Of a stretch of DNA of 34,221 nucleotides, positions 648-15,255 are shown piece by piece. The position numbers and the translations under genes are program-made. The stretch is from Lacrimispora saccharolytica (GTDB taxonomy: Bacteria > Bacillota > Clostridia > Lachnospirales > Lachnospiraceae), in NCBI GenBank assembly GCA_016899975.1, contig JACJJN010000031.1, positions 1 through 34,221 on the forward strand. The letters are read 5' to 3'. The notes under the pieces were generated by a model, which ran no database searches, was not told where the DNA came from, and saw only the letters and a program-made list of their open reading frames with translations. Position 1 is the stretch's first letter; each line of letters starts with the position of its first letter.

Positions 648-712
648 GGCTCTTGCTCCTTCATCATCTTATTATAGTTCATCACATCTCTGCCGATCAC
701 AGATCGTTGCCT

Positions 713-770
713 GCTGCTCACCACGAAGAGGTGTGTGATTATCCGAGCAGCATCGGGAGCCACCGCTCCC
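713..770 (-). other. Two adjacent stem-loops between VanZ-like gene and hypothetical gene
   Basis: On the minus strand GGGAGC-GGTG-GCTCCC (755-770) forms a 6-bp hairpin. It is followed by GCTGCTC...GAGCAGC (713-751), whose interior can also pair (CACC/GGTG around TCTTC). There is no U-run, so these are not obvious terminators; they could be mRNA processing or stabilising structures. Confidence 0.35.
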
Positions 771-2370: not shown

Positions 2371-3531
2371 TTAATGCCTTAACATTGCTTTTAATCTTTG
2401 TTTCACAGGTGACAAAACTCTTCTTATTTTTTCAAGCATCTTCATTGATCCGTATTTTTTTAAACAGTACTCGAATCCTTTTTTTTCAATCATCCTTTGG
2501 AATTCTTCGTAGTGATATGGTTTAGGTGAAGGACTATTCAAATTCTTCTGATTAATTTCATTTAACGAACACTCTATTATATCAAATTTGTTTTTTAGTG
2601 TTTCAAATACTTTTTCCCCCTTTTCGGAATTTATAATAACAGATGATACGCCCAATTTATCCTCAAATGCCTCATTTACATTTTTCAGATTCCAAAAATC
2701 TCCAATTGTTATGTCTCCTTGTCGTTCCATACTTGAGAATCTACATGCATAACAAGAATCTCTTAATATATAATTATTGGTAAATAAACGATAAAAATTA
2801 TCCACCCATATAGGAGCATGGTATATTCGTCCATTTTTAAATTTAATATATATTTCTTGATTTCTCCACCCATACACTTTCTCTCGAAATTTAAGTTCTA
2901 TTATTTGAGAGGAATACAGCTTTTCTTTTCCCTTTAAAAATGCGTTTAATAATTCACTACTTGGTACACCATGACAAATTAAATCCAACGTATATAAATT
3001 ATCATATTCTTTTCTCAAATATTTCTTCAAACCAGCTACCTCACATGGCGTACCTGTAAACAACACCTCTTTTCCTTCCTTCAGATCTTTCTGTACCATA
3101 CAAAAAATCGAATGTTTATCACTTTGTACATATTTAGAGCCTTGAAATTTCCGAGCATCTTCAATCGTTGTCGCTCTTCCATGTTTTACTTGAAAATCAT
3201 CGTTCATCTCCACGCCATACACAACGCCATCATTGTTCAAAATATATTTTGCAACTTCTACAAATACTCCACCTGAACTACTTTTTGCTCGTTCATGCTC
3301 ATCTTTATTTTTTACTCCATAAGCTATTTTTTTAAACTTCTTATTCTTTTCTTTATCTTTTAATGGACAAACCTTTTCGCATAATCCGCAATTAACGCAT
3401 GAATCTTTTCTAATTTCAGGATACAAATATCCCTTTTCATCATGTTTCATATAAATTGCATGTTTAGGACAAATATTCAAACATGCTGAACATCCACAAC
3501 AGTCCTCTTTATTTATATATAACTTTTCCAT
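2371..3531 (-). CDS. Ferredoxin / F420H2-dehydrogenase beta-subunit-like protein of polysaccharide loci
   Basis: 386 aa. Two 4Fe-4S ferredoxin motifs sit at the N-terminus: C11-x2-C14-x2-C17-x3-C21-P and C45-x2-C48-x2-C51-x3-C55-P. The FrhB-type N domain follows (SSSGGVFVEVAKYIL, then FTGTPCEVAGLKKYL) and then the C domain (LDLICHGVPSS, YACRFSSMERQGDITIGDFW). In methanogens this fold oxidises or reduces coenzyme F420. In clostridial capsule clusters the same architecture occurs beside pyruvyl transferases and GTs, with an unproven role that presumably involves a flavin-dependent redox change of a sugar or lipid carrier. It ends 2 bp from the flippase gene, so it is co-transcribed. The gene is strongly AT-rich, like its upstream neighbours. 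Family assignment is certain; reaction and substrate are not. Confidence 0.85.
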   Translation of the reverse strand: MEKLYINKEDCCGCSACLNICPKHAIYMKHDEKGYLYPEIRKDSCVNCGLCEKVCPLKDKEKNKKFKKIAYGVKNKDEHERAKSSSGGVFVEVAKYILNNDGVVYGVEMNDDFQVKHGRATTIEDARKFQGSKYVQSDKHSIFCMVQKDLKEGKEVLFTGTPCEVAGLKKYLRKEYDNLYTLDLICHGVPSSELLNAFLKGKEKLYSSQIIELKFREKVYGWRNQEIYIKFKNGRIYHAPIWVDNFYRLFTNNYILRDSCYACRFSSMERQGDITIGDFWNLKNVNEAFEDKLGVSSVIINSEKGEKVFETLKNKFDIIECSLNEINQKNLNSPSPKPYHYEEFQRMIEKKGFEYCLKKYGSMKMLEKIRRVLSPVKQRLKAMLRH

Positions 3532-3532
3532 C

Positions 3533-5044
3533 TTATTTTCCTTTCATATTTCTCAATCTTATAAGTATCGTTCTAAAATTGTCTCTTGCAAATATAATAT
3601 GAAAAATACAAATAAAAACTAAACTATAAGCTCCAACACAGATTGCGTAAAAAAGCCATGTAATAAGACTTGTTGGCGTAAACTTTATTAGCATTGGTGC
3701 CGTAACATATATTACTATAATCATTAAAATTGCAGTACAAATATTTAACAAAGTACTTTTTCTAGTCATATGTGTTACCATTTTGGGTATAAAAAAGTAC
3801 AAATCAATACAACGATATAAATTAGATAAGCAGGAAGCTAACATGATTCCAGCTAATCCCCATTTTATTCCAAAGCAAATACCTCCTATCAATAAAATAG
3901 CTGCTTGAACCGTACTTTGAACTCTTGTTTCCTTATATAACCCCGCCGCTATCACCAACATTCCTTGAGGTGTTTTTAGATTGTATAAGATTCCATTAGC
4001 TACAAATAAAATAGCAAGTGTAAGATTTGTATATTGAATATCATCAACTCCACTTGTATAGACCCCTACAAACGGTAGGATTGTAACTAATGTAATAGAA
4101 TATATAACGCTAACCATAAAATAATAAAGATATTCGAAATCACTATATGCCTTTTGAAATGCTGTCTTATCTTTCTTAACAATTAATTCCCCAAAACCTG
4201 CTGAGACGCCCGTAGAAAATACAGACATTACTCCATTAATCCCAGCCATCACCATATTATAAACTGAATAAACACTTACCATTTTAAGAGATGAAAAAAT
4301 GGTTGTCATAACTGCTGGAGATGCATTTTGTACAGTTTGAACTATCTGTAAATATAATGCACTCCATCTCTTATCCATCGCACCATAATCAGGTTCCACG
4401 TCATAACATATAAAGTGGTAATTAGTTTTAACATACACATACAATATTAATGTTCTCACAAATATTGATAACAATGCAATAATTCTCAACAAGACAATAT
4501 TAATATGCATTATTGATAAGGCCACGACAATGATAGTATTTAAAACTGTATACACAATCGAAGCCAATGAAATTACATATGTCCTTTGATCAGCAGTAAG
4601 CAATGCTCTGTATTTTGCCAAAGTAAAAAATTCTAACGAGCCATTAACTCCCAACACAAGAACTAAAACGAAAATACTCGTTTGATCTAAAACAGTTGAA
4701 TCTGTAATAAAAGGATAACATATAGCCAAGATTACAACCAAACCTACAAAAATGAATCCTGATTTCACATAAAAGTGCTTCGCAGCAACTACTATCCGGT
4801 TGATCCTATTGTAGTCTTTCTCTGCGATAGGTTTGTACAAAGAATAAACCGCTGCACTTGACAAACCAGCCTCTACTAGATTGAAGTAACTAATAAACTG
4901 TAGAATAGATGATATCAAGCCATTAATTTCAGATCCATATGCTGTCAACATAAATCTAGGCGTTATAAACCCTGCAATCATTGTTACGACCTGTAATAAT
5001 GCTGTCGTAACCGAATTCAACATAAATTTTTTTGAGCGTCCCAT
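3533..5044 (-). CDS. Polysaccharide flippase, Wzx/MATE-like
   Basis: 503 aa, almost entirely hydrophobic, with about 12-14 membrane-spanning segments spread over the whole length. The N-terminal 'SVTTALLQVVTMIAGFITPR' helix and the following 'YGSEINGLISS' are typical of the polysaccharide_synt (Wzx) branch of the MOP exporter superfamily. Wzx proteins flip the undecaprenyl-PP-linked repeat unit across the membrane for polymerisation. It sits between the GT2 gene (3 bp gap) and the Fe-S protein gene (2 bp gap), a tight operon. Only one flippase and one polymerase are present, which fits a Wzx/Wzy-dependent polysaccharide. The gene symbol wzx is functional shorthand rather than a recognised orthologue. 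Confidence 0.88.
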   Translation of the reverse strand: MGRSKKFMLNSVTTALLQVVTMIAGFITPRFMLTAYGSEINGLISSILQFISYFNLVEAGLSSAAVYSLYKPIAEKDYNRINRIVVAAKHFYVKSGFIFVGLVVILAICYPFITDSTVLDQTSIFVLVLVLGVNGSLEFFTLAKYRALLTADQRTYVISLASIVYTVLNTIIVVALSIMHINIVLLRIIALLSIFVRTLILYVYVKTNYHFICYDVEPDYGAMDKRWSALYLQIVQTVQNASPAVMTTIFSSLKMVSVYSVYNMVMAGINGVMSVFSTGVSAGFGELIVKKDKTAFQKAYSDFEYLYYFMVSVIYSITLVTILPFVGVYTSGVDDIQYTNLTLAILFVANGILYNLKTPQGMLVIAAGLYKETRVQSTVQAAILLIGGICFGIKWGLAGIMLASCLSNLYRCIDLYFFIPKMVTHMTRKSTLLNICTAILMIIVIYVTAPMLIKFTPTSLITWLFYAICVGAYSLVFICIFHIIFARDNFRTILIRLRNMKGK

Positions 5045-7278: not shown

Positions 7279-8362
7279 TCAAAACCCTCTCAAAATACTG
7301 ATTTGTTTTTATATATTGTTTTCTGATCTGATCATCGGCAAAATTAAAATCTCTACTAACATTTAATCTACAATCCTCTAATGTTTTCACCTTACATCCA
7401 TCTAACCCTGTTAAACATAACAAAGAGTCGACTCTATCATTAGGCTTAAAATCTTTTTGTAATGCTTCCACATAAAAATCTTTATGAAAAATAACAGAGA
7501 AGGCTGTTCCATGGAATGAATTAGTCACAACATAGTCAGCATATTTTATATATCCCAAAAACTCTTCTACTGATGCCGAATACACTCCTTTTATATCCGG
7601 AGTTTTCATTTGATCTACTACATCAAAATTCAACGCCACAATTTTTCTGCCCGTTAATTTAGATAATTTTCTTGCAAAGTCAAAAATCAAATTCGATGTA
7701 TTCAATTTGTAAATTAATATATAATTCTTAAGTTTAGGTTTCTTTGCAAGTTTTTCCCATTCTTCTGCGGTCAATAAAAAGACTGGATCCACAGATAATT
7801 CCGAATCTTTTCCGGTTAGTTTTTTTACAATCTGTTGTCCTGCATTTTCACGGATAGATAATTCAGAAAAAGTTGATAGCAAACTTTTATAATCATTTAC
7901 ATAGCTGTCTGGAATCTCCTTCATACCAAACGAAGCAGCATAGGAAAGTTTGTTATCACAATTTTTTACAAATTGTAAAAAATATGTTTTATCGAAATCT
8001 GTACATGCAAAATTGAAAACCTGATCGCTTCCTGTTATAAACTTATCGTAGCGAAGATTCGCCTTATCTATATTAAACTTATCATAAACTTCTGTACTTA
8101 TTCGGACATTTTGATCCAAAAATCTGTAAAATTCTCTTTTTTTCTTATATGTGTTTTTAAAATTCAACATTCCTCTAATAATCTGTTTTACAGACTTGTC
8201 CTTTATTGTGAATGTTTTATAAAAATTTTCCATATGTTCACATCGATAATCTATAACCTCTGCATCATAGTTAGAAACATTTAAAAATTTCTGTAATGCA
8301 TATGTTTGCAAAACTGCCCCATAATTAATTGCTCTGTGAAACGTAATAATTCCTATTCTCAT
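7256..8362 (-). CDS. Polysaccharide pyruvyl transferase family protein
   Basis: About 368 aa. The N-terminal MRIGIITFHRAINYGAVLQT is the hallmark start of this family. Further hallmarks are YDKFITGSDQVFN (about residues 105-117), a SIRENAG segment and the C-terminal VTNSFHGTAFSVIF. Members add a pyruvate ketal from PEP to a sugar of the repeat unit and belong to the GT-B-like CsaB/WcaK group. A frame can be extended to a TTG at 8383. The ATG at 8362 is better, because GAGGG lies 6 nt upstream. It lies 17 bp downstream of a GT2 gene and overlaps the polymerase start. Pyruvylation would give the polymer negative charge. In clostridial loci this family often travels with the F420H2-dehydrogenase-beta-like protein, which is also present here. 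Confidence 0.88.
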   Translation of the reverse strand: MRIGIITFHRAINYGAVLQTYALQKFLNVSNYDAEVIDYRCEHMENFYKTFTIKDKSVKQIIRGMLNFKNTYKKKREFYRFLDQNVRISTEVYDKFNIDKANLRYDKFITGSDQVFNFACTDFDKTYFLQFVKNCDNKLSYAASFGMKEIPDSYVNDYKSLLSTFSELSIRENAGQQIVKKLTGKDSELSVDPVFLLTAEEWEKLAKKPKLKNYILIYKLNTSNLIFDFARKLSKLTGRKIVALNFDVVDQMKTPDIKGVYSASVEEFLGYIKYADYVVTNSFHGTAFSVIFHKDFYVEALQKDFKPNDRVDSLLCLTGLDGCKVKTLEDCRLNVSRDFNFADDQIRKQYIKTNQYFERVLNEDGRSF

Positions 8363-12604: not shown

Positions 12605-13726
12605 TCATTTCCTATATAACTTCATCGTTTCCTTTACGACATCATCCCAGTTATATTTCTCGAAGATAAAGTCAGCTGCCTGATTCTTCATTTTCATAAC
12701 CATTTCTGGATGGTCACAAGCATCTTGCAGTTTTTCTTGCAAGTCCTCTATATTCGACTTTTGGAAAATCAATGCCTTATCTTCCACAACCTCTGCGCAC
12801 TCTGGAATGTCAGATACCAGACAGCAATTACCATAGCTCATTGCTTCCAGTAGACTTAAGGGCATTCCCTCCAGATCAGACGGCAGCGTGTAAATATAAG
12901 CATTGCTGTACAGTTCATCCAACATCGCTCCCTGTACAAACCCGGTAAAGAGAATCCGATCGTCGCCCTTCGCCAGGTCTTTCAATTCCTCCATAAAGGA
13001 ATCCGTATCGCTAGAGCCGCCTGCGATGACCAGCTTTTTATCTGTCTTGACATTCTTGAACGCCTCAACCAGATATCGAATACCTTTTTCTGGCACCAGA
13101 CGACCGAGGAACAATATGTAGGAATCTTTTTCCAGTCCAAAATTGTCCGTGATCAGCTTTGCCTTCCGATTCTCTGGCCTATTGACACCATTAGGGATAA
13201 AATGCGTCTCCCTTCCGTACGTATCCATGAAATATTTCTGAACGCCTTTGCTTAGAACAATGATTTCATCTGCATATTTCACGGCATTTTTTTCACCCTG
13301 TCGGATAAATTTGGATCCAACTCCAAATTTCCATTTTTCGCGGGCCCAGTCCAAACCGTGAATAGTGCTGATTACACGCTTGCCAAAAAGTTTTGGTATC
13401 CAACAGAAAAAGGCAGGGCCTTCTGCATGGATATGCACCACATCGTATCTTCCAAATGCACTACAAAGTGCTGCGAAAAAGGAAGAGCTTACCGCTGCAA
13501 GTCCCTTCTTCTCAATGGTCGGAACAACCTTTTGACGGATACCATCATATTCAATTGTCTTGTCATACTCTGCACCGCTCACATGATGACCTGCTCTGTT
13601 GTAGCAAGTCACGTCACAGCCATTCTGTGCCATTCGGGTACATAATTCTTTTACGACAATCTCTATCCCGCCTTCACGAGAAAGACGTTTCTGTCCGAAA
13701 ACCGCAAGTCTGATTTTTTCTTCCAT
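12605..13726 (-). CDS. Glycosyltransferase family 4, intact paralogue of the two truncated copies upstream
   Basis: 373 aa. The N-terminus LAVFGQKRLSREGGIEIVV has the R-x-G-G-x-E loop of rhamnosyl-type GT4 (DUF1972-like) enzymes. HAEGP then IPKLFGKRVISTIHGLDW marks the acceptor domain. The donor domain has LFLGRLVPEKGIRYLVEAF and LPSDLEGMPLSLLEAMSYGN (E-x7-E). This is the only full-length member of a small local family. The fragments at 14048-14500 and 14789-14890 match its N-terminus clearly but with many substitutions, so they are old paralogues rather than recent copies. A GGAGAGAAGTA leader provides the ribosome site at the ATG. It is the first complete transferase after the initiating enzyme and may add the second sugar. 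Confidence 0.88.
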   Translation of the reverse strand: MEEKIRLAVFGQKRLSREGGIEIVVKELCTRMAQNGCDVTCYNRAGHHVSGAEYDKTIEYDGIRQKVVPTIEKKGLAAVSSSFFAALCSAFGRYDVVHIHAEGPAFFCWIPKLFGKRVISTIHGLDWAREKWKFGVGSKFIRQGEKNAVKYADEIIVLSKGVQKYFMDTYGRETHFIPNGVNRPENRKAKLITDNFGLEKDSYILFLGRLVPEKGIRYLVEAFKNVKTDKKLVIAGGSSDTDSFMEELKDLAKGDDRILFTGFVQGAMLDELYSNAYIYTLPSDLEGMPLSLLEAMSYGNCCLVSDIPECAEVVEDKALIFQKSNIEDLQEKLQDACDHPEMVMKMKNQAADFIFEKYNWDDVVKETMKLYRK

Positions 13727-13848
13727 TACTTCTCTCCAACCGTCATTCCATAGTTTCTATTCTTGCCCTAGGCCTATACACAATCCCAGCAGTTCTTATC
13801 CTTAAATTGTCATGCTCGTCTTTCACTATTCACCTTTCCTACTTCATA

Positions 13849-14113
13849 GCACAACAACAAGCCTGTATACAGATTGCAGTAACAATCTATACGCAGGCTT
13901 GTCCTCGTACCTCCTAATTTTGTTTTCTGCTCTATCAGCTTTCGCTGTGGTGGGTTAAGTATAGAGCGCAACCAGAAGCCATTAACCTCTGAAAACACGC
14001 TAGTCCTAGCGCACCATGACAAGCAGAAACAAGTTGAGGTGAAAAGGTCAAGCCGCGCAAACCCGCATGAATTCAGGCTTTTTCCTGGTTGTCCATATTA
14101 TTTCACACTCCCC
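13849..14113 (-). repeat. Element A: unrecognised hairpin-ended repeat truncating a GT4 gene
   Basis: On the minus strand the element begins where the GT4 fragment loses homology (after ...ACGATTCATG, about 14113) and runs to TTGTTGTGC near 13849. It shares ordered blocks with element B: ATAATATGGACAACC, GCGGCTTGACC, then a ~33-bp block around GCTCTAT...AACCCA, then AGGAGGTACGAG. A very long hairpin follows (13857-13902, about 20 bp of stem: ACAAGCCTG...CAGGCTTGT). An internal GCTCTAT/ATAGAGC stem carries an AGC-GAAA-GCT tip. No transposase, terminal inverted repeat or target duplication is visible. Confidence 0.6.
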
Positions 14114-14500
14114 ATGAATCGTAGCAACACAACGCTTCCCAAAAAGTTTTGGTAACCAAATCATGGCACATGGGCCTTCGGCGTGAAAATGAACAACATC
14201 ATATTTTCCAAGTGCCGCTTCGAGTGCTGCGAAAAAAGAAGAACTCATTGCGGCCAATCCTTTGGCATTTATTGTGAATACACTTCTAATTCTTATTCCC
14301 TTGTATTCCTTTAGATTCTCACTATCAAATTTCTTACCGCTTATATGATGGCCCCGACGATTAAAGCAAGTAACCTGGTGGCCCCTTTTTACCATCCGGG
14401 TACTTAATTCCTCCACAACGATCTCTATGCCACCTTCTCTAGATGGGATTCTTTTGTGTCCGAGCATACATATTTTCAATTTTTTCGTAATATTTCCCAT
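14048..14500 (-). pseudogene. Truncated GT4 glycosyltransferase (N-terminal ~130 residues plus 21 foreign residues)
   Basis: The frame of 150 codons matches the intact GT4 at 12605-13726 from the start through LPKLFGKR-x-x-x-TIHG (about residue 129). It then switches abruptly to 21 unrelated residues (ECEIIWTTRKK...VCAA) encoded by element A. The whole donor-sugar domain is missing, so it cannot be an active transferase. The start at 14500 has an AAGG just before the ATG and the N-terminal acceptor motif SREGGIEIVVEEL is intact. The same foreign tail, GDGDIIGTTKK...LAA, is attached to the next fragment upstream. It may simply be decaying, but the open frame with a shared ending is notable. 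Confidence 0.75.
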
Positions 14501-14608
14501 CCTTGACCCACTCCCTACCAGGTTTTCTCTTCCGCAATTTCATTTCCAAATTAGTTTTATCTCCACTGCTCATGAAACCAATTTTGATTTCATCAGCACC
14601 AAAGACAA
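14501..14608 (-). other. Leader segment between element B and the GT4 fragment
   Basis: About 108 bp between the hairpin end of element B and the ATG at 14500. Its last part (GGGAGTGGGTCAAGG-ATGGGA) resembles the leader before the fragment at 14890 (GAGGAGTGGACAAGAG-ATGGGA), so gene leader, gene start and element repeat as one composite unit. Another frame is open here, but nothing supports it as a gene. Confidence 0.45.
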
Positions 14609-14852
14609 GCACGACAACAAGCCCATACCTGACACTTTCGTGCCTGGCATAGGCTTGCCTCAAACCTCCTGTTCAGATTTTCATGCTCTCTAAGATTGGG
14701 TCAAATAGAGCCATCAAGAAACCATCCACTATCTTAGCCTTTTGACGTCTTACCCGTTTGGCATGAAAAATCGAATTTGAGATTTTGGTCAAGCCGCCAA
14801 AAGCCTTGATTTTGCGTGGTTTTTCTTGGTTGTCCCTATTATATCTCCATCA
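14609..14852 (-). repeat. Element B: unrecognised hairpin-ended repeat truncating a second GT4 gene
   Basis: Same block order as element A on the minus strand: ATAATAGGGACAACC, GGCGGCTTGACC, a block around GGCTCTATTTGACCCA, then AGGAGGTTTGAG. The hairpin at 14618-14657 (CAAGCC...GGCTTG, 17 of 18 positions paired including wobbles) has a GAAA tetraloop, followed by TTGTTGTCGTGC. Many stem positions differ from element A but remain paired (G-U, A-U exchanges), which suggests selection on structure or at least recent common structure. The host gene loses homology after ATGCTCGG. Confidence 0.6.
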
Positions 14853-14890
14853 CCGAGCATTGCTATGTTCAACTTTTTTTGTTCTCCCAT
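14789..14890 (-). pseudogene. Very short GT4 start fragment fused in frame to element B
   Basis: ATG at 14890 begins MGEQKKLNIAMLG, clearly homologous to the GT4 starts (compare MGNITKKLKICMLG). After 13 residues the frame runs into element B (DGDIIGTTKK...) and stops with TGA at 14789-14791, giving 33 aa. The stop lies in the GGCGGCTTGACC block, exactly where the larger fragment at 14048-14500 also stops. Only the first beta strand of the glycosyltransferase remains, so it has no enzymatic role. A GAGGAG Shine-Dalgarno-like run lies 10-15 nt upstream. Confidence 0.6.
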
Positions 14891-14998
14891 CTCTTGTCCA
14901 CTCCTCACATTCCTTGCGGTTACTTTCCAGGCTCCAACCGCCTTTTATTAGGCAAGAAAACGCCTGCAATCCCGATTTTCAAATTTTTTCGTCTCAAA

Positions 14999-15173
14999 CA
15001 CGACGAACAGCGGGTAGACTTGCGTCCATCCGCTGCGGCATTACTACCCTCCTTAAGTCGGCCAAAAGCGCCTTATCTACGGGCTTTTTGCTCACTTTCC
15101 CGGGTAAGAAAATATGAACAGTATCAGCGAACCTCTCGGCTCTCCCTGACTTGTTCCTATTATGCCGCATTCA
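14999..15173 (-). repeat. Element C: shorter, divergent copy truncating ugd
   Basis: On the minus strand it starts ATGCGGCATAATAGGAACAA (matching the ATAATAGGGACAA start of B) and includes GCGCTTTTGGCCGACTT (compare GGCTTTTGGCGGCTT in B). It then has AAGGAGGGTAGTA and a hairpin at 15008-15035 (CAGCGG...CCGCTG) with a GCAA tetraloop, then TTCGTCGTG. It lacks the middle GCTCTAT block of A and B. The loop is GNRA, as in B, with a completely different stem sequence. Confidence 0.52.
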
Positions 15174-15255
15174 TATGATGCTGAGACAACAGGATAGCAA
15201 TAGATAATCCCACATATCCAGTTCCAGCTACAGCAATCGTATACTTCTTATCCAT
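15160..15255 (-). pseudogene. ugd: UDP-glucose 6-dehydrogenase start fragment
   Basis: The ATG at 15255 opens MDKKYTIAVAGTGYVGLSIAI, the unmistakable N-terminal NAD-binding strand and G-x-G-x-x-G loop of UDP-glucose/GDP-mannose dehydrogenases, continuing LLSQHH. Homology ends after about 27 residues, at the junction with element C, and two stops (TAA TAG) follow directly. A full gene would be about 390-420 codons, so the NAD-sugar catalytic core is absent. The frame is also open upstream of the ATG for about 50 codons with acidic, unrelated sequence. The strain may need another ugd copy if its polymer contains glucuronic acid. Confidence 0.82.

Follow-up and report, generated by a model that had tools for sequence, protein, structure and literature searches.

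A structured RNA family at the cut starts of polysaccharide genes in Lacrimispora saccharolytica and other Bacillota, with a putative relationship to large serine recombinase half-sites

The stretch of DNA analysed here, referred to as the window, comprises 34,221 nucleotides from Lacrimispora saccharolytica and is the whole of contig C127 of genome G000. On its minus strand the same arrangement occurs three times: the 5′ start of a cut gene runs into a folded element, and a leader then connects the element to the next gene start. An earlier note, made from the letters of the window, had located these three units, and its coordinates are correct to within a few bases. The relevant features are listed below, with bit scores from the covariance model R1 described later.

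15163..15255, minus strand: ugd 5′ fragment, 27 native codons ending in QHH, then MNAA and the stops TAA TAG
14999..15173, minus strand: element A, short variant; fold z −4.42; R1 9.5 bits over the 3′ 57 nt
14852..14890, minus strand: GT4 5′ fragment of 13 codons; the cut separates GG from T in a Gly codon; frame read by eye
14610..14852, minus strand: element B, a 24-bp putative half-site plus structured RNA; R1 173 bits; fold z −4.46
14829-14852, minus strand: putative half-site of element B, TGATGGAGATATAATAGGGACAAC, from the half-site comparison
14114..14500 (ORF 14048-14500), minus strand: GT4 5′ fragment, 129 codons plus GG; Pfam Glyco_transf_4 on the ORF
13850..14111, minus strand: element C, a putative half-site (GGAGTGTGAAATAATATGGACAAC) followed by structured RNA; R1 149 bits
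12610..14115, minus strand: transferred unit of element C, leader and intact GT4 gene; ~93% identity to four other loci; bounded on the left by the 5′ end of the element
12605..13726, minus strand: intact GT4 glycosyltransferase; Pfam Glyco_transf_4, Glycos_transf_1 and DUF1972 match

The match of a ugd query to the window is confined to residues 3–23, and the fragment itself gives no match in a Pfam search; the same ugd fragment also stands before an A element at a second locus (L063). In the 129-codon GT4 fragment, the cut falls in the Gly codon after codon 129. The 5′ end of element A contains a putative half-site, TGAATGCGGCATAATAGGAACAAG, that fits poorly and is preceded by TA instead of GG. 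The earlier note had found no 3′ part of a cut gene after its element, and this is true of every copy that was read on its right side. Elsewhere in the window (680-751, minus strand), RF02682, the HDV-like ribozyme as in F. prausnitzii, matches with 80.9 bits; this site is at the far end of the polysaccharide cluster, directly after an ORF that appears VanZ-like by eye. In the L006 stretch from a genome of the same genus, two near-identical repeats of ~75 bases (~730-810 and ~965-1045) are seen by eye upstream of the ugd fragment.

Elements B and C belong to one structured RNA family of ~230–260 nt. R1 was built from 27 copies, B and C among them, and works mainly by sequence, since RNAalifold gave it only 9 pairs. 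The fold z-score of C is −5.72, and for none of the three elements was any of 200 shuffles as stable. A five-helix model pairs 91.8% of the cells in the 27-copy alignment; shuffled alignments reach 86.5%, and sliding the model leaves no more than 46%, a test that favours the structure because it was drawn (partly) from the same 27 sequences. Changes on both sides of a helix are found in 46 cells, against 15.9 in shuffles, and none of 500 shuffles is as high; other covariation measures are only moderately above shuffles (26/500 shuffles as high for both-side-changed pairs and 24/500 for further pair types). The covariation lies mostly in the 3′ hairpin, with none in helices 1 and 2. The spacing from ATAATA to a GGYTTCTTG block is nearly constant at 119–128 despite diverged DNA between them, and GACAAC and GTTGTC form inverted repeats at the element ends. 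Against Rfam, the elements match no family above its gathering threshold and nothing convincing below it; the best sub-threshold match is the rimP leader on the opposite strand. The description of all three elements as related thus holds strongly for B and C and weakly for A. The likeness of A is confined to its ends (the 3′ 57 nt recognized by R1, plus ATAATAGG; the GGYTTCTTG block was not found in it), and A is a shorter and weaker relative.

The earlier note held that its proposal would fall if a covariance search found no other copies, and further copies were found: R1 detects the family in 38/397 genomes of the bacterial family at E≤1e-3 and in 9/391 genomes of the class at E≤1e-6, G000 included in both counts. 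Full-length copies of at least 97 bits are present in 15 of those 38 genomes, again including G000, and copies per genome are few. Within the genus of the window, a DNA search gave one further copy (L006) in 1/6 other genomes. A strict pattern, ATAATAKGNACAACCARGAAAAA, was run against 84,980 species genomes and has 29 matches in 28 stretches; by record title, the genomes with matches are mostly Lachnospiraceae with a few other Bacillota (Faecalicoccus, Absicoccus and C. polynesiense). A strict pattern has no match in viral contigs. Pattern matches L008–L011 and L017, with 3 mismatches, were dropped as probable chance, the later blocks being absent by eye. Element C also occurs on 6 plasmids of Lactococcus, Lactiplantibacillus and Levilactobacillus with 97–100% of the query aligned, and is 94.3–96.1% identical to the full-length copies on five of them and 87.5% to that on the sixth. 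In the two annotated full matches inspected, the element is located at the end of a short DUF1972 gene, which itself comes after the sugar transferase gene in an EPS cluster. Another 3 plasmids have just the initial ~91 bases of element C; a truncated element of this kind from Lactococcus plasmids (L052, 9001-9101) has an epimerase gene directly after it.

In most CPS copies, the 5′ part of a cut polysaccharide gene abuts one fixed position of the element and a new gene start follows. The 5′ border is a precise junction and, as a correction to the earlier note, lies ~12 bases 5′ of ATAATAGGG. The genes on the left include ugd, aminotransferase genes, sugar transferase genes of two kinds, and genes for GT4/DUF1972 glycosyltransferases in which the position of the cut varies (families assigned mostly by eye, with a few Pfam checks). 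Their fragments range from ~10 to ~400 codons, and the one in L039 appears frameshifted. The first 24 bases of the element form a putative CPS-type left half-site, resembling ATAATAGGGACAAC, and GG directly precedes this 24-mer in 33/44 rows from several gene families, which are not independent events because the rows share ancestry. That GG is in codon phase 1–2 in 24/33 rows by script, or 26/33 with two rows read by eye, and outside the glycine phase in 7/33; for reference, 40% of the GG dinucleotides in ten reference genes are in phase 1–2. The 11/44 rows lacking GG are mostly aminotransferase copies and element A. The 44 rows omit L023, L026, L030, L032, L037 and L043, which are the same contigs as L015, L013, L014, L019, L007 and L016, respectively, as well as L061. 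The last of these, from G227, is an exception in which the element follows a complete sugar transferase gene, no gene is cut and the first ~16 bases are absent.

The reading frame chosen for the cut gene enters the element and stops at +54/+57 in 23/44 rows and at +4 in another 14, the remaining 7 having their stops at other positions; the script chose the wrong frame for the window (B) and L038, and the GT4 frame read by eye reaches +54 in B. The idea of a system that caps genes after their 5′ ends fits this outcome, but not as its cause, since the junction resembles an attachment site. An ssrA-like degron reading of the resulting C-termini (SLA, LAA, CAA) was considered; its basis is the shared frame only.

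The gene starts can be stacked more deeply than in the window. A Lachnospiraceae MAG (L048) carries six cut GT4 starts and then one intact gene, with three of the starts capped by this element and three otherwise. Pairwise comparison of the six fragments and the intact gene gives dS of at least 0.68, several values being saturated or not computable, and dN of 0.04–0.17, a pattern better accounted for by functional, already diverged alleles arriving one after another than by duplication within the locus. The complete genome G775 has two elements in tandem between ugd and an aminotransferase gene, and L016 and L018 each have two sugar transferase starts in succession. The L048 starts with other caps are u2, u3 and u4 (oriented positions 2980-3100, 3350-3860 and 4270-4360); u2 and u4 have the motif AAAAACTCATTTT...TAATGATGCCCACA in common, and behind u3 lie ~500 bases of a different stretch.

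The element can also be transferred together with what follows it. The segment from −14 to +1491 relative to element C, containing the element, leader and GT4 gene, is ~93% identical in the window, Lactiplantibacillus plantarum L049, Lactococcus L050, G227 and G174. The 300 bases to its left show 46–61% identity among these five loci, corresponding to background or distant homology, and the match extends leftward by ~100 bases in L049/L050 and ~43 bases in G174/window. On the right, the window departs from the other four at the GT4 stop, those four have the start of the next gene in common, and G227 and G174 continue together. Since the right limits differ, only the left border recurs. We conclude from these alignments that element C, its leader and the intact GT4 gene moved as one unit. 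The earlier wording, a small non-autonomous element that deletes flanking DNA, is not supported in that form: in these five loci leader and gene are transferred as well, and in no copy read does the cut gene resume after the element.

A second setting for the RNA is provided by a ~185-nt subclass, also found by R1, that heads operons of ~70-kb conjugative elements. The interior of the element in G287 encodes a T4SS coupling protein, PrgI and TrbL-like proteins (Pfam), and by eye a terminator-like hairpin and T-run follow the RNA in this subclass. Upstream of 6/7 copies inspected, and in opposite orientation, lies the 3′ portion of a tyrosine integrase gene that is cut at the RH motif (by Pfam for G287, G034, G073 and both copies in G181; by eye for two G372 copies). 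The exception is L072 (G206), with no adjoining integrase half. In the complete genome G287, the N-half (Pfam positions 6–134) and C-half (133–170) of the integrase lie 70 kb apart; when the flanks are joined, they form an open frame that spans 400 residues between stops and in which HDLRHSH is restored. Integrase halves meeting at Pfam position ~134 are also found in G073, 70.8 kb apart on one contig, and in G181. A distant search of plasmids with the ICE-type copy found nothing. In L086, two ICE-type RNA copies (~8060-8244 and ~14075-14259) lie 6 kb apart in opposite orientation beside different integrase 3′ parts.

By the far end of the G287 element is a gene for a large serine recombinase (LSR), in which Resolvase, Recombinase and zinc-ribbon domains are recognized, and two further LSR genes lie behind it. 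Three LSR genes in a row likewise adjoin the far half-site in G034 and twice in G181 (domains checked for one):

G287, C1:701088-704710: LSR gene triplet
G181, C2:225391-229016: LSR gene triplet
G181, C2:178284-181906: LSR gene triplet
G034, C82:24612-28249: LSR gene triplet

The far half-site, TTTGTCGTGGGCTTGACATACGGG followed by TG, recurs beside the integrase N-halves in G073 and G181 and is present in 18/299 genomes; a reversed control is absent. Combining both half-sites of G287 gives the attP TTTGTCGTGGGCTTGACATACGGG-TG-CCGTTACGGTATAATAACGACAAA, an imperfect inverted repeat, which is what LSR attachment sites are expected to show. Integrase genes have thus been split by LSR-bearing ICEs through LSR-type insertion.

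The ICE left half-site and the CPS element start are co-linear. In both, ATAATA occupies bases 11–16 from the junction, and GACAA, with single changes in some copies, bases 19–23. Over 24 bases, identity to the CPS starts is 12–16 for G287/G073, 12–17 for G206, 15–20 for L078, 15–19 for L076 and 15–18 for L080; the ICE ends with LSR support reach only 12–16/24, the closest (L078, up to 20/24) is an ICE-like end, and these ends were found with a CPS-trained model, so that the letters in common are partly selected for. No such selection applies to the distance from the gene junction, which is also shared. L076 has 18 contiguous bases in common with L013-type copies. Across six ICE or ICE-like ends, the co-linear 24-mers (12–20/24) suggest that the CPS junction carries a putative left half-site. 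The L076, L078 and L080 ends abut a cut UPF0020-type methyltransferase gene, ResIII helicase gene and DUF1016/YhcG nuclease gene, respectively; L076 and L078 lead by eye into apparent conjugative elements, and the L080 sequence ends 530 bases on. Short hairpin relatives of the 5′ block stand directly after the cut non-polysaccharide genes in all three.

Two questions bear on whether the CPS junctions were made in the same way: (i) is an LSR encoded nearby and (ii) where is the remainder of the cut gene. For the first, a tblastn search with the G287 LSR gave no match in 40 CPS/EPS stretches (the window, five long stretches, 28 pattern loci and six others, some overlapping), a search that distant LSRs could escape; both ICE controls match. 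Pfam searches found no LSR on the window contig or, among all 8 of 8 matches listed, on contig C53 of G268; none lies near the CPS copy among the 9 of 11 matches listed for G324 and the 4 of 6 listed for G145, and the nearest in G227 is ~90 kb away among 16 of 21 matches listed. The surroundings of 36 LSR loci were also searched for the left motif, and none contains a convincing half-site of the CPS type. For the second, the 3′ halves of the cut genes are absent from 25–60 kb downstream in G145, G268 and G324, and from the window. No LSR was found in any of the 40 stretches and the gene remainder is missing where sought; both results count against an LSR origin of the CPS junctions, which, like the one-sided replacement, is an inference. 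Also counting against it are the rows in which GG is absent or out of the glycine phase, the 12–16/24 identity of the LSR-supported ICE ends, the other caps in L048, and the exceptions L061 and L072.

We propose that each unit is the scar of an LSR-type recombination, consisting of half an attachment site and a cis-acting RNA that heads the incoming operon, and assign this reading a probability of roughly 0.57. The first 24 bases of the element would be one half of an LSR-type attachment site and the cut gene on the left the matching half of the target site, with the core probably the GG before the half-site, mostly in a glycine codon. Joining at these sites most likely follows LSR chemistry. 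The conserved RNA, which begins immediately inward of the half-site, would be co-transcribed with the long downstream operon and act in cis. In an excised ICE circle, the order would be LSR, attachment site, RNA, terminator and transfer operon. In the CPS loci, the joint would connect the start of the resident first gene to an incoming operon, whose transcription would then start at the resident promoter. Neither the remainder of the cut gene nor the old operon is left, and the probable reason is that homologous recombination resolved the other end. The locus would thereby be replaced, and the stacked gene starts would be a record of earlier replacements. Among the explanations offered in the earlier note, the one that comes closest is a recombination junction formed by a structured RNA element: such an RNA family exists and has a precise 5′ border, and the LSR origin at CPS loci is the part that we add by inference.

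The RNA would most likely act as a processive antiterminator or a terminator-resistant leader. CPS loci and ICEs alike have an RNA of conserved secondary structure ahead of a long operon, so a role in transcription is the simplest guess. NusG-like (LoaP-like) genes occur in six CPS loci (L021, L026, L032, L034, L044 and L046; Pfam-confirmed for one), and none was detected in the remaining stretches searched apart from a second copy of the L032 contig. These same observations, together with the helix covariation and the longest ORF of the next 2 kb being on the same strand in 33/35 rows with enough sequence (one is opposite and one has no ORF; 9 rows are too short), could instead indicate a purely cis-regulatory RNA acting in antitermination or attenuation, with the cut genes as by-products of ordinary CPS recombination at a conserved anchor. 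We consider this somewhat unlikely, as it leaves unexplained both the cutting of different genes at one fixed distance from the element and the co-linearity with the ICE-end half-sites.

It is less likely still that the element is a small, MITE-like non-autonomous mobile element, its two ends no more than ~270 bp apart, whose insertion is followed by deletion of the 3′ flank. The inverted repeats at its ends would suit such an element, as would L034, where the C element is 92–98% identical to other C copies, the right flank is at background (47–53%) and the left flank at 43–66%. Yet the cut gene resumes after the element in no copy with its right side read, leader and gene travel along in five loci, and genomes hold few copies. 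We also regard it as improbable that the units were duplicated in tandem where they stand, whether by slippage or by unequal crossing-over of an element end with the interior of a gene: the seven GT4 starts in succession in L048 and the paired sugar transferase starts of L016 and L018 have the expected look, but the dS and low dN of the L048 units indicate that they are not recent copies of each other, and the genes after A, L013 and L014 belong by eye to a different family from the cut ones. We give very little weight to the proposal that the N-terminal fragments are functional themselves, for example as chain-length modulators, and that the element ends them cleanly. Most frames are indeed open to the common stops, dN is low in L048, and work with a truncated form of EpsF and on EPS chain length has been reported (PMC7023835); pieces of 10–13 codons, however, cannot be enzymes, the fragments span ~10 to ~400 codons and that of L039 appears frameshifted. 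We also considered IS605-type ends, integron attC sites and remnants of group I/II introns, and set them aside, as no enzyme, consensus or second exon was seen.

Capsule and EPS clusters vary widely from one strain to the next. If the recombination-scar reading is correct, the swap of a whole cluster would leave a precise, searchable signature, so that events could be counted and ordered, as with the six cut starts of L048. Cut glycosyltransferase starts now recorded as ordinary proteins (e.g. 'DUF1972 domain-containing protein') would be explained as well. A broader and more tentative idea, possible rather than probable in our estimation, is that of a mobile module in which an LSR half-site is fused to a termination-overriding RNA. 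Any operon behind the joint, whether for ICE transfer or for a capsule, would then be switched on by a transcript crossing it, and capsule diversity in gut Firmicutes would be driven by recombinase-made, one-sided locus replacement, with successive events left behind as stacked, RNA-capped gene starts. The link between an attachment site and a conserved RNA would be directly testable, and a new RNA family becomes available for functional tests.

The ICE subclass resembles known LSR integrative elements of phages and ICEs, including those of multi-targeting LSRs, in its insertion into a conserved gene motif, dinucleotide core, inverted half-sites and LSR at one end (PMC10083194). The CPS copies differ from these systems in showing one half-site only, no LSR found in reach and DNA that is replaced rather than inserted. 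In the titles and abstract starts of open PMC full texts, we found no description of this element, of LSR-made CPS junctions or of a conserved RNA directly inside an LSR half-site.

Enterobacterial polysaccharide operons are headed by a conserved element, JUMPstart/ops, that has been suggested to assist exchange. The present element occurs in another phylum and, as JUMPstart/ops is described, is set apart by a border that cuts genes at a fixed base. In integron gene cassettes, a gene and a folded recombination element move together; here the element is upstream of the gene, with the attC consensus compared by eye only. EAR/put-type antitermination RNAs are structured RNAs at the heads of long operons. 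The terminator-like hairpin after the ICE subclass RNA is a point of similarity to these RNAs and to LoaP leaders. LoaP-dependent leader hairpins are likewise structured RNAs heading long polysaccharide or biosynthetic operons, and a UNCG hairpin motif is a feature of LoaP targets (PMC12691694). In contrast to the LoaP, EAR and put leaders, the RNA described here is larger (~180–260 nt), has no Rfam match, is accompanied by NusG-like genes in only six of the loci searched and is situated at recombination junctions.
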